A stretch of DNA of 64,000 nucleotides, taken from assembly GCA_016795485.1 (NCBI GenBank), contig JAEUHM010000041.1, positions 186,001-250,000 on the forward strand, in the 5' to 3' direction. Position 1 is the first letter of the stretch; each line of letters begins with the position of its first letter. This DNA is from Verrucomicrobiaceae bacterium (GTDB lineage Bacteria > Verrucomicrobiota > Verrucomicrobiia > Verrucomicrobiales > Verrucomicrobiaceae). Shown in pieces: positions 40,210 to 44,920 of this stretch. A program made the position numbers and the translations under genes. The notes below the pieces were generated by a model, which saw only the letters and a program-made list of their open reading frames with translations, had not been told where the DNA came from and made no database searches.

Positions 40210-40539
40210 ATGCTGTTTTTGGTTGATGCACAGCTACCCCCCGCGCTGGCACGCCTACTGACTCAGCATGGCTATACTGCCGAGCATGTGGCAGACATTG
40301 AGCTTAATGAGGCCGACGACTCGATCATCTGGGAATATGCGCTGGAGCATAAAGCCATCGTGATCACCAAAGACGAAGACTTCCCTTATCGCCACAGACA
40401 GAGCCGGAAGGGACCCGTCATCGTATGGCTACGAATAGGCAATGCGAGCCGCAAAGCATTACTCCAGTGGTTTGAGCCTTTGTTACCTGACATCATAAAG
40501 CATATCGAGCAGGGCAATCAGATCATTGAGGTGCGCTGA
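40210..40539 (+). CDS. DUF5615 PIN-like toxin
   Basis: 109-residue PIN-like protein (Mut7-C/DUF5615 type). Acidic residues expected at the metal site are Asp6 ('LVDAQLPPAL') and Asp55/Asp57 ('VITKDEDFPYRH'), with Glu34/Asp36 ('LNEADD') between. Such toxins are predicted RNases held off by the DUF433 partner immediately upstream. The two form a compact module between phoD-like and haem-dehydrogenase genes. Confidence 0.87.
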   Translation: MLFLVDAQLPPALARLLTQHGYTAEHVADIELNEADDSIIWEYALEHKAIVITKDEDFPYRHRQSRKGPVIVWLRIGNASRKALLQWFEPLLPDIIKHIEQGNQIIEVR

Positions 40540-40545
40540 CTGCCA

Positions 40546-43230
40546 CTACTTCATCAAAAACGCGATCAAATGCTTCACGTTCTCTTCTCCAAGGGCGGTT
40601 AGCAGGCCTTCTGGCATGAGGGACTGAGCTAGTTGCTTTTGTTCGCTGATTTGAGTGCGCTCGACGGTTAGCTTTTCTACTGGGGTCTGGATGGTGATGA
40701 CCTTTTCTGTCTGTTCTGGGATCACGCCTGTGACAGTGCGGCCATCTTTGAGCTTGAAGACGCTTACGCGGAAGTCAGCGGGCACGAGGGCATTGGGATC
40801 GACGATGTTCCCAAGCAAGTAATCGAGATTCTTGCGATCGCTTCCCGTCAGATCGGGGCCGATTTTGCCGCCCTCGCCGAACATCTTATGACAGGCACCA
40901 CAGGCGGCGGTGAAAATCAACTTACCCTTCGTTGCATCACCTCCAGCGGTTGTGAGAAGCTTCTTCCAGGTCACGAGTTCGGCCTTTTTCGCTTCGGGTG
41001 TGTCGCGTAGTTCTCCCCACACGGTTGTTAACTGTTTATTGAGGGCTTCATCACCCAAAGCGCGGATTTGCCGTGCCTGGAAGGGCGACAGATCTGCGCG
41101 CGAAACCATCCCGGCTGCCATGGCATCTAGTAGAGGCTTCGTCCAGGCTGCACGAGAGGTCAGCGTGGTGATATTGGCCGCGCGCCACTCAATGCTACGC
41201 TCTGGCCAGTTGTTTAGCAGCGCTTTGGGCACGTCTTCGTTGGGGAATCGAGCCATGGCGAGTCGAGCCGCGCCCCCGAGCACCTTGTCGTTGATCTGTT
41301 TGCGCACGAGTTGGAAATGCTCTGGCTTCGGGTTCTTCATGAGCGAGGCAAAGGCGCTGCTGCGGGCATTGGCGTCGTTCTCGATCTTCTCGATGATGGC
41401 TATCAGATCGTCGATGGCGCGTCCGCTGCCGAACACGAGGGATAGCTCGGTGATCTCAGGGTTAGTAGTTCGAGCTTCAGCTCGTTCGGATGTTCCTGAG
41501 CGAGCTGAAGCTCGAACTACAAGCTCATCCCAGCCTTTCGGTTTTGGAGCGCTGGCTACGCCTTTGAGAGCGGCAGCCATGCCTTGCAGGATGTCAGTGC
41601 GGGCTTCATCTGACTTGGTGGCGAGTACTACGAGCGCCTCAATGTGTGCGCCGTTCTTCTCGTAGTCCTCAACGATCCGGCGTGTCACCAACCGACGAAC
41701 CGTAGGAATCTTCGCCTTGGAAACCAACTCAATCCCCTTGGCCGGATCAGCCGCCACGGCAGGCTCGATGCCATACCAAATCATGAGTGGTTGATCACGG
41801 TCCCTGGCGTCTTCTTCACGCTGAGCGAGTGCGGTGGCGATGGGCCAGCGATCAGCGAGAGGGAGCTTTTGCAGAGCAGATGCTTCATGCAGACGCGCCA
41901 GTCCTTCAGACGCGACTTTGACCGCATAGGTCTTATCCGACCTATTGGACCATTCCATTCTCTCCGTCCAATCGACCAACGGGCCAGCCCACTGTCCCTC
42001 CCCATACACAATCTTATAAATCCGCCCACTCGTCCTATGCACGCCGTCGTTGTCGTGGCACTCGCCGCTGTCGCTCCAGTCTAGGACGAAGACGTTGCCA
42101 TCGGGTCCGGTGCTGAGTTCGATGCCGCGGAACCACTTGTCTTTGGCTTGCATGAAGTCTGGCTCGTGTTTGCCCACGAAGCCGCAGCCTTGGCGGTCCA
42201 AGCGCTCCACGTTAATGCGATTTCCGTGCAGGTTGCAGGTGAAGACGCGGCCTTTGTATTTCTCCGGCCACAGACCGCCGTTGTAGATCATCATGCCGAC
42301 ATGAGCGTGACCGCCGCCGAGTTCTAGGGTCTTGCTGCTGACTCCGTTGCGGATGTCGCTCCACTTTTCGTTGCCGATGTCGAAGTGATAATGATCGGCT
42401 ATCATCGGCAGTGTCTCATACACATGTGAGTTCAGATGCGTGCCGAACATGCGGTCGGTGTAACTGCCAGGGATGCCGTGGAAGAGGTGCCCGATGACGG
42501 TGTTGATCCAAAATAGCTCGCCATTGGCATCCCAATCATGACCCCAGGAGTTGGTGCCGCCGTGCAGCACGACTTCAAACACCCGGCGCGTGGGATGATA
42601 GCGCCAGAGACCACAGTTCATCTTGGTGCGCTTATCCAATGGAGTGCCCGGAGCACCAATCGCGCTCGTGTCGGTGATGCCGTGGCGTCCGTAGAGCCAT
42701 CCGTCTGGTCCCCAGCGCAATCCATTGACGATGTTGTGGCCTATGGTCTTCGTATTGAAACCATCCAGCAGCAGTTCCGGCGGTCCATCCGGCACATCGT
42801 CTTTGTTTTTGTCTGGGATGAAGCTTAGCCCGCCCTCAGCCAGCATCCACACACCGCCGTGGCCCACTTCCACGCTGGTGAGATACGTGGCTTGATCATA
42901 GAACACCTTCCGTCCGTCGTGTTTGCCATCGTTGTCCTTGTCCTCCAAGATGATGATGCGATCTCGCAGCTTGGTGTCCCAACGCTGAGGGTTCTCGGCA
43001 TAAGTGTAGCACTCCGCCACCCAGAGCCGCCCTTTCGGGTCCCAAGCCAGCGCTATCGGCTGCTGCACGTCCGGTTCAGCGGCAAACACCACGCACTTGA
43101 AGCCTTCTGGCAACTGCATGGATGCCGCCGCTTCTTCCGCAGGCATGGGACTGCCTTTCTCGGTGTTGTACGGAGCAGGAAACTCGGCGTGGAGCGCGGT
43201 AGCGAGTAGGAATGGCAAAAAACGGGTCAT
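40546..43230 (-). CDS. PVC-type membrane-bound dehydrogenase with C-terminal haem-binding domain
   Basis: 894 residues from the ATG at 43230 (MTRFLPFLLATALHAE, a signal peptide). The N-terminal half is the dehydrogenase-like propeller ('MQLPEGFKCVVFAAEPDVQQPIALAWDPKGRLWVAECYTY', 'WGPDGWLYGRHG', 'VFVLDWSDSGECHD'), a helical repeat middle follows, and the C-terminus is a haem c domain with C777-G-A-C780-H781. This is the Pirellula/Verrucomicrobium-type dehydrogenase common in PVC bacteria. Residues 571-589 are encoded by a 56-nt palindrome inserted in frame (see the repeat at 41465). An upstream extension of the frame to 43413 lacks family homology. Confidence 0.9.
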   Translation of the reverse strand: MTRFLPFLLATALHAEFPAPYNTEKGSPMPAEEAAASMQLPEGFKCVVFAAEPDVQQPIALAWDPKGRLWVAECYTYAENPQRWDTKLRDRIIILEDKDNDGKHDGRKVFYDQATYLTSVEVGHGGVWMLAEGGLSFIPDKNKDDVPDGPPELLLDGFNTKTIGHNIVNGLRWGPDGWLYGRHGITDTSAIGAPGTPLDKRTKMNCGLWRYHPTRRVFEVVLHGGTNSWGHDWDANGELFWINTVIGHLFHGIPGSYTDRMFGTHLNSHVYETLPMIADHYHFDIGNEKWSDIRNGVSSKTLELGGGHAHVGMMIYNGGLWPEKYKGRVFTCNLHGNRINVERLDRQGCGFVGKHEPDFMQAKDKWFRGIELSTGPDGNVFVLDWSDSGECHDNDGVHRTSGRIYKIVYGEGQWAGPLVDWTERMEWSNRSDKTYAVKVASEGLARLHEASALQKLPLADRWPIATALAQREEDARDRDQPLMIWYGIEPAVAADPAKGIELVSKAKIPTVRRLVTRRIVEDYEKNGAHIEALVVLATKSDEARTDILQGMAAALKGVASAPKPKGWDELVVRASARSGTSERAEARTTNPEITELSLVFGSGRAIDDLIAIIEKIENDANARSSAFASLMKNPKPEHFQLVRKQINDKVLGGAARLAMARFPNEDVPKALLNNWPERSIEWRAANITTLTSRAAWTKPLLDAMAAGMVSRADLSPFQARQIRALGDEALNKQLTTVWGELRDTPEAKKAELVTWKKLLTTAGGDATKGKLIFTAACGACHKMFGEGGKIGPDLTGSDRKNLDYLLGNIVDPNALVPADFRVSVFKLKDGRTVTGVIPEQTEKVITIQTPVEKLTVERTQISEQKQLAQSLMPEGLLTALGEENVKHLIAFLMK
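41465..41520. repeat. 56-nt near-perfect palindrome inside a coding region
   Basis: Arms 41465-41484 and 41501-41520 are perfect 20-bp inverted repeats. With two G-U pairs the stem extends to 25 bp and the loop shrinks to 6 nt. It lies wholly inside the haem-dehydrogenase gene, and its reverse complement spells a similar peptide (VVRASARS...ERAEARTT) on both strands. The 56 nt plus one flanking base make 19 codons, so the reading frame is kept. Confidence 0.85.
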
Positions 43231-43241
43231 GGACGGGTAGA

Positions 43242-43326
43242 AAACGCGAGGAACGCCATGTTTTGAACACGAATCCCACCATGCAAGTCCCGTGTTCCAG
43301 AAAGCGAGTGCCAAGTTCCCGCGTTT
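43242..43326. repeat. Nested inverted repeats between divergent genes
   Basis: AAACGCGAGGAAC (43242-43254) faces GTTCCCGCGTTT (43315-43326), an imperfect pair. Inside, GAACACG (43265-43271) and CGTGTTC (43291-43297) are a perfect 7-bp pair. The whole 106-nt spacer between the dehydrogenase and the sulfatase starts is thus occupied. Confidence 0.4.
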
Positions 43327-43336
43327 CACACCCGCT

Positions 43337-44920
43337 ATGATCCGATCCGTCTTTTTGTTTCTTCTGCTGCCGCTGTGTTTGTCCGCTGCTGACAAGCCGA
43401 ACATGGTCTTCATTTTGTGTGATGACCTGGGCTATGGGGATGTGAAATGCCTCAATCCAGAGGGCAAGATCGCCACCCCGCACATGGATGGCATGGCTTC
43501 ACGAGGGATGATCTTCTCGGATGCGCACAGTTCTTCGTCCGTGTGCTCGCCTACTCGTTATGGAGTCATGACCGGGCGCTACAACTGGCGGACGAAGCTC
43601 CAGCAGAGCGTGCTCGGCGGTCTGAGTCCGCGTTTGATTGAGCCGGGACGCATGACGGTGGCCAGCATGTTGAAGGAAAACGGTTACTCCACGGCTTGCG
43701 TGGGCAAATGGCACCTCGGTATGGACTGGGTGAAGCTGCCTGGAAAGGAAGTCAGCGAGCTGTCCATCGAGACCGAGGATCAGGTCAACAACGTGGACTA
43801 CACGCAGCCGACTACGAATGGTCCGACGAGTGTGGGCTTTGACAGCTACTTTGGCATCAGCGCCTCTTTGGACATGGTGCCGTATGTTTTCATCCGCAAT
43901 GATCGCGTGACGGCCAACCCCACCGAGAAAATGAAGCTGGAGATGAACGCCACCAGTCGGAACGGCAAATCTTACACGCGCGAGGGACCGGCAGCGCCTG
44001 GGTTCAGAGGAGAGGATGTGCTGCCGGAGTTCACGAAGGAAGCCGTGAAGGTCATTGGCGAACATGCCAAGTCAGACAAGCCCTTCTTCCTCTACATGCC
44101 GCTGAACTCGCCGCACACACCGATCTTGCCCTCAGAGAAGTGGCGCGGGAAGTCTGGCATCTCACTGTATGCCGACTTTGTGATGGAGACGGATGATGCG
44201 ATTGGCCAGGTCATTGATGCGCTGAAGCAAAACGGCGTCCTGGACAATACATTGGTGATCGTAACCTCCGACAACGGCTGCTCGCCGAGCGCGGACTACA
44301 AAACGCTGGCCGAGCACGGTCACAATCCGAGCTACCACTTCCGTGGGACCAAGGCGGATGTGTTTGATGGCGGTCATCGCGTGCCGTACCTCGTGCAGTG
44401 GCCTGCTGTAGTGAAGGGCGGTGGCAAGTATGAGCATCCGATTGGTCTTTGGGACTTCATGGCGACTGCGGCGGACATCGCCGGGATCAAAGTCCCGGAA
44501 AACGCTGCTGAGGACAGCATCAGCTTCCTGCCCGCGCTTAAAGGTGAAGTCAGCAAGCCCGTGCGAGATCACTTGGTGAGCCACAGCATCAACGGCAGCT
44601 TCGTCATCCGTGAGGGGAACTGGAAACTCTGCCTCTGCCCGGACTCCGGCGGCTGGAGTGACCCACGTCCTGGCAATCCCAAGGGCAAAGGGAAGCAAAA
44701 GGTGATTCCACAGGCAGGCTTGGAGCCGATACAGCTTTACGACCTCAACACGGACATCAGCGAGAAGGCCAACGTGCAGTCCAAGCACCCCGAGATCGTA
44801 GCCAAGCTGGTGGCGAAACTGGAGAAACTCATCGCCGATGGCCGCACCACACCCGGAGCGCCGCAAAAGAACACGGTGGACCCCAATCCCTGGCGCTATG
44901 CCAAGCGCCCATCCCTGTAG
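43337..44920 (+). CDS. Exported sulfatase (type I, formylglycine)
   Basis: 527 residues from the ATG at 43337 (MIRSVFLFLLLPLCLSAADK, a signal peptide). It has 'MVFILCDDLGYGD' (metal site), the signature C-S-P-T-R (Cys70-Arg74), 'ACVGKWHLGMDW' and 'IVTSDNGCSPSADY'. An earlier ATG at 43292 adds a poor N-terminus. It is similar in plan to the sulfatase at 32384 but not its duplicate. Downstream is the 22-bp minisatellite. Confidence 0.92.
   Translation: MIRSVFLFLLLPLCLSAADKPNMVFILCDDLGYGDVKCLNPEGKIATPHMDGMASRGMIFSDAHSSSSVCSPTRYGVMTGRYNWRTKLQQSVLGGLSPRLIEPGRMTVASMLKENGYSTACVGKWHLGMDWVKLPGKEVSELSIETEDQVNNVDYTQPTTNGPTSVGFDSYFGISASLDMVPYVFIRNDRVTANPTEKMKLEMNATSRNGKSYTREGPAAPGFRGEDVLPEFTKEAVKVIGEHAKSDKPFFLYMPLNSPHTPILPSEKWRGKSGISLYADFVMETDDAIGQVIDALKQNGVLDNTLVIVTSDNGCSPSADYKTLAEHGHNPSYHFRGTKADVFDGGHRVPYLVQWPAVVKGGGKYEHPIGLWDFMATAADIAGIKVPENAAEDSISFLPALKGEVSKPVRDHLVSHSINGSFVIREGNWKLCLCPDSGGWSDPRPGNPKGKGKQKVIPQAGLEPIQLYDLNTDISEKANVQSKHPEIVAKLVAKLEKLIADGRTTPGAPQKNTVDPNPWRYAKRPSL

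Follow-up and report, generated by a model that had tools for sequence, protein, structure and literature searches.

A palindrome in a haem-protein gene

The window analysed here is a 64-kb stretch of DNA from a 527-kb contig; the genome to which it belongs measures 6.5 Mb and is 99.9% complete. On its reverse strand, positions 40546–43413 (955 codons) encode a PVC-type haem-binding CxxCH protein, which has an N-terminal TIGR02604/DUF7133 region (388.6 and 219 bits, respectively), an alpha-solenoid and a C-terminal cytochrome-c-like TIGR02603 domain (118.6 bits). The nearest named relatives of this protein are found in Verrucomicrobiaceae and Prosthecobacter assemblies. As matches to orthologues begin near residues 55–64 and the confidence of the structural model is <50 before this point, the gene probably starts at codon 62 (about position 43230), and the first 61 codons are probably non-coding. 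The mechanically assigned long starts of this gene and of a divergent sulfatase ORF (43292–44920, forward strand) overlap at 43292–43413. At its 3′ end the gene converges with a small ORF of 109 residues (40210–40539, forward strand), which we take to resemble a DUF5615-type PIN-like protein and which is possibly half of a toxin-antitoxin pair.

The top-ranking inverted repeat of the entire window, at 41465–41520, lies within the haem-protein gene. Its 20-nt arms (41465–41484 and 41501–41520) are perfect reverse complements separated by 16 nt, and can be extended to 23 nt if one mismatch is allowed. The predicted folding energy is -29.3 kcal/mol, compared with -10.5 kcal/mol for shuffled sequences (z = -8.48; none of 200 shuffles was equally stable), and the number of arm occurrences predicted by chance in the window is 0.00. 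The palindrome with perfect 20-nt arms reported in the first-pass annotation is thus real.

Each arm has the layout GTAG-TT-CGAGCT-TC-AGCTCG, in which a GTAG tag precedes a hairpin whose loop is 2 nt long. Judged by this arrangement, the palindrome is a REP doublet (REPIN) of GTAG-tagged units with the tags outward. Unit 1 (41465–41484, forward strand) and unit 2 (41501–41520, reverse strand), an inverted unit of the same sequence, are separated by a 16-nt spacer (41485–41500) that is slightly shorter than the 18–19 nt spacers in the other doublets of this genome that share the arm. From the conservation of flanks, the full element probably extends from 41461 to 41524 and includes 4-nt tips (GTTA ... 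AAGC) that are close to the consensus GTTY-GTAG seen in the flanks of other copies.

The reading frame of the host gene is unbroken through the palindrome. The element encodes 19 codons (41464–41520, reverse strand), corresponding to residues 632–650, VVRASARSGTSERAEARTT. These are the residues that were initially numbered 571–589, as the start was then counted from codon 62. While 19 codons are read from the element, the net addition is about 3–12 residues, so that an addition of exactly 19 codons, as first proposed, is not supported: the distance between conserved anchors is 44 residues here versus 32–41 in the nearest REP-less relatives. The similar peptide on the opposite strand is also present, as the automatic result of an inverted repeat that sits in frame. 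The antisense ORF at 40910–41665 was rejected as a gene, as it merely mirrors the host gene. In an AlphaFold2 model, the insert falls between confident helices of the solenoid (residues 602–615 and 652–661), with block confidence of 51 at the insert and >90 on either side, and only low-confidence helical stretches are predicted inside it. According to this model, the insert occupies an inter-helix loop of the alpha-solenoid, which bears out the earlier placement between structured segments.

REP copies and RAYT genes

REPs and REPINs with GTAG tags that are associated with RAYT genes have been described previously (PMC3116915, PMC3733652). The element in the window resembles them in its GTAG tag, its short hairpin with a TY-type loop and its arrangement as an inverted doublet with a short spacer. 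It is also multicopy, and matching units flank a RAYT gene. The element belongs to this known kind and is not a new element type.

The first-pass annotation had left it to a search of the genome to determine whether the arm is unique. The arm is repeated: 27 exact matches to the general REP pattern were found in about 16 clusters, many of them inverted doublets. Variants of the inner stem are compensated (CGAGCT/AGCTCG, CGGGCT/AGCCCG and CGACCT/AGGTCG), changing on both sides as expected for a hairpin under selection. The pattern was found in 45 of 68 genomes of the family (about 0 in the reversed control), with the highest count in a relative being 97. In a census of eight genomes, 51 inverted doublets, including the one in the window, had cores of 46–82 nt. 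A second PVC-type haem-protein gene in the same genome as the window (L031, C26:106312–106706) contains two in-frame REP doublets, at 813–871 and 1149–1207.

A RAYT gene encoding a product of 199 residues is found in this genome (G000) at C26:115257–115853. An HUH-type motif, NHYHLFVKV, occurs in the product together with the sequence YIHHNPVRHG, and the gene is bordered on both sides by doublets of the window arm type (locus C26:115175–115983). In profile searches, the product fell under the curated NCBIfam and Pfam cutoffs, scoring 68.8 bits (E 4.5e-19) against NF047646, the REP-associated tyrosine transposase model, which has a cutoff of 80. A homologue in G008, likewise between two doublets, scored above it, at 84.1 bits. 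Searching the sequences of solved structures with the product returned no match, and when a genome-wide scan relied on Pfam Y1_Tnp only, the RAYT in question was not detected.

Among 15 related RAYT loci that were retrieved, REP-like units were present on both sides in 10, on one side in three (two of these at contig ends) and on neither side in two. Across these loci, the REP subtype changes along with the RAYT. L211 and L212 are RAYT genes with a divergent type of flanking REP, GTTGTTCACGCTTCAGCGTG, which suggests that RAYT and REP change together. Genomes with a close RAYT have a median of 27 REPs versus 1 in the others (Mann-Whitney p = 4e-4, 33 genomes, uncorrected for relatedness). REPs of the window pattern were absent from three genomes that have a close RAYT, and G039 has 8 REPs with no RAYT detected.

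One loop and a retained reading frame

The segment that contains the insert, from xPKPKGWDE to LSxVFGxGR, ranges from 30 to 63 residues among about 70 homologues, and many of the long versions are REP-derived. REP doublets are found at the loop in the window protein, L051, L088, L113 and L115, and single or paired REP units in L047, L075, L078, L084, L087, L090, L094, L103–L105 and L118–L120. Many homologues, including whole clades, have a REP-like segment at this position, and in one paralogue group the tandem and single units look inherited. Both observations could be accounted for by an ancient loop segment that predates the split of the genera and has had its REP sequence kept by gene conversion among copies. 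However, we consider this unlikely, as the distribution of REPs is patchy. In a tree of 65 homologues from which the loop columns were left out, REP presence at the loop underwent at least 11 changes of state, though this was a quick tree with no bootstrap on which gain and loss cannot be separated. The sister proteins L119 and L086 differ, with a REP only in the former. While L051 carries a REPIN, the palindrome of its sister L050 is unrelated and occurs 29 times in the L050 genome, and the sisters L047 and L052 have a REP and a possible further palindrome, respectively. In L106 the loop holds yet another palindrome, present 13 times in the genome concerned, so that three unrelated palindrome families occupy the loop; the two non-REP families, GACAGGCATCCTGCCTGTC and GGAGTGAGGSCRTC..., are both multicopy in their genomes. 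The nearest neighbours of the window protein in the tree (L045, L055, L076, L077 and L081) have no REP at the loop.

The first-pass annotation held that the same segment in distant genera would speak against a mobile element. Segments are indeed present at this place in other genera, but they belong to other REP subfamilies or are unrelated palindromes, which points to repeated insertion and not to an old protein segment. The sister sets L119/L086/L085 and L088/L095/L089/L115/L113 did not show precisely where the insert begins and ends, as the flanking linker residues differ too. A near-identical empty site was not found, so that the junction was not seen directly, and the flanks of the copies gave no rule for target duplication or target sequence.

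The census assessed 133 REP clusters with full flanks, using a hexamer coding score trained partly on the same ORFs that it then scored. In 32 of these, including the window copy, both flanks are coding on the same strand, and the frame is kept in every one, where one third would be expected by chance were the frame irrelevant. As proposed at the outset, the family is able to enter proteins. About a quarter of the sampled clusters are in genes and about three quarters outside, whereas published REPs are mostly extragenic; as the genomes were picked partly for high copy number, the one-quarter share is not a family-wide estimate. The core lengths of in-gene doublets were in class 2 modulo 3 in 18 of 20 cases, in class 1 in two and in class 0 in none. 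This distribution differs from that of doublets outside genes (8, 17 and 6 in classes 2, 1 and 0; p = 4e-5), and the class missing from genes is the one whose length would bring a stop. The common reading of in-gene doublets is VVxASAG or VVRASAR on the left and PAKAGTT or RAKARTT on the right. Among the hosts of the in-gene clusters are DUF7133 haem proteins, PSD/PSCyt proteins, UvrA, an isoleucyl-type tRNA synthetase, a sulfatase and a lactate-utilisation protein. In uvrA, REPs are found at a matching place, after RKNIPVPxxRRS, in two genomes (L247, 1470–1522, in G047 and L280, 2534–2553, in G039).

Selection on a transcribed hairpin for a role in mRNA stability or pausing, with coding incidental, would be in keeping with the strength of the window hairpin and with the view of extragenic REPs as RNA elements (PMC3733652). 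It is nonetheless very improbable, as single-arm and decayed copies at the loop form no large hairpin and the strict retention of frame points toward constraint at the protein level. The least probable explanation is membership of, or a close relationship to, the Rickettsia palindromic elements, which are protein-coding palindromes with no transposase of their own: despite the shared habit of short palindromes lying in frame in genes of many functions, CGTC is the terminal tag of the R. conorii RPE-4 and RPE-6 repeats, and repeats with this tag are apparently without a dedicated transposase (PMC3733652), whereas the element here has a GTAG tag and a REP inner hairpin, is linked to a RAYT, and resides in a phylum far from Rickettsiales. 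The initial comparison with these elements holds for behaviour, as a mobile palindrome tolerated in frame in a loop, and fails for kinship.

Origin and wider meaning of the probable insertion

We conclude that a REPIN, most likely copied by a RAYT, very probably landed in frame in a tolerant solenoid loop of a PVC-type haem protein. The REPIN would be non-autonomous and most likely copied by the RAYT of its own genome, a single-strand HUH tyrosine transposase for which GTAGTTCGAGCTTCAGCTCG is the putative substrate for binding and cleavage. Its insertion would have been into the inter-helix loop of the solenoid part. The window copy may have survived because both arms are free of stops in the frame taken (VVRASAR ... 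RAEARTT), the length preserved the frame and the loop can accommodate additional residues. The peptide is presumably translated and functionally near neutral.

In-gene GTAG REPs were reported in a 2013 survey, most of them in the verrucomicrobium Opitutus terrae; uvrA was among the host genes, including in O. terrae, and loops and linkers were proposed as tolerant insertion sites (PMC3733652). The copies described here are similar in being verrucomicrobial, in frame, single or dimeric and about 20–30 residues long, and in having uvrA as a host. However, the only same-site REP insertion in that survey was in Xanthomonas recB (PMC3733652), whereas here one loop of a PVC haem protein has been hit repeatedly across genera and paralogues. 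A literature search, with most subscription papers outside its scope, returned no earlier report of several palindrome families repeatedly occupying a single loop in different genera, and this is the part that appears to go beyond published cases.

More tentatively, and with the odds slightly against it, the RAYT-driven REPINs of Verrucomicrobiaceae may be a standing supply of protein linkers that repeatedly enter the same tolerant loops of homologous genes, mostly in one frame (VVxASAG ... PAKAGTT), and then degenerate to unremarkable linker sequence. The haem-protein solenoid loop, the linker after DUF7133, uvrA and PSD1 proteins would be such tolerant sites. One case of protein-coding palindromes is here tied to a family with a known transposase type, so that how palindromes enter proteins becomes testable with an available enzyme. 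Unrelated palindrome families sharing one loop separate the tolerance of a protein site from the preference of a transposase, and suggest that mobile DNA makes up part of what varies in the linkers of bacterial orthologues.
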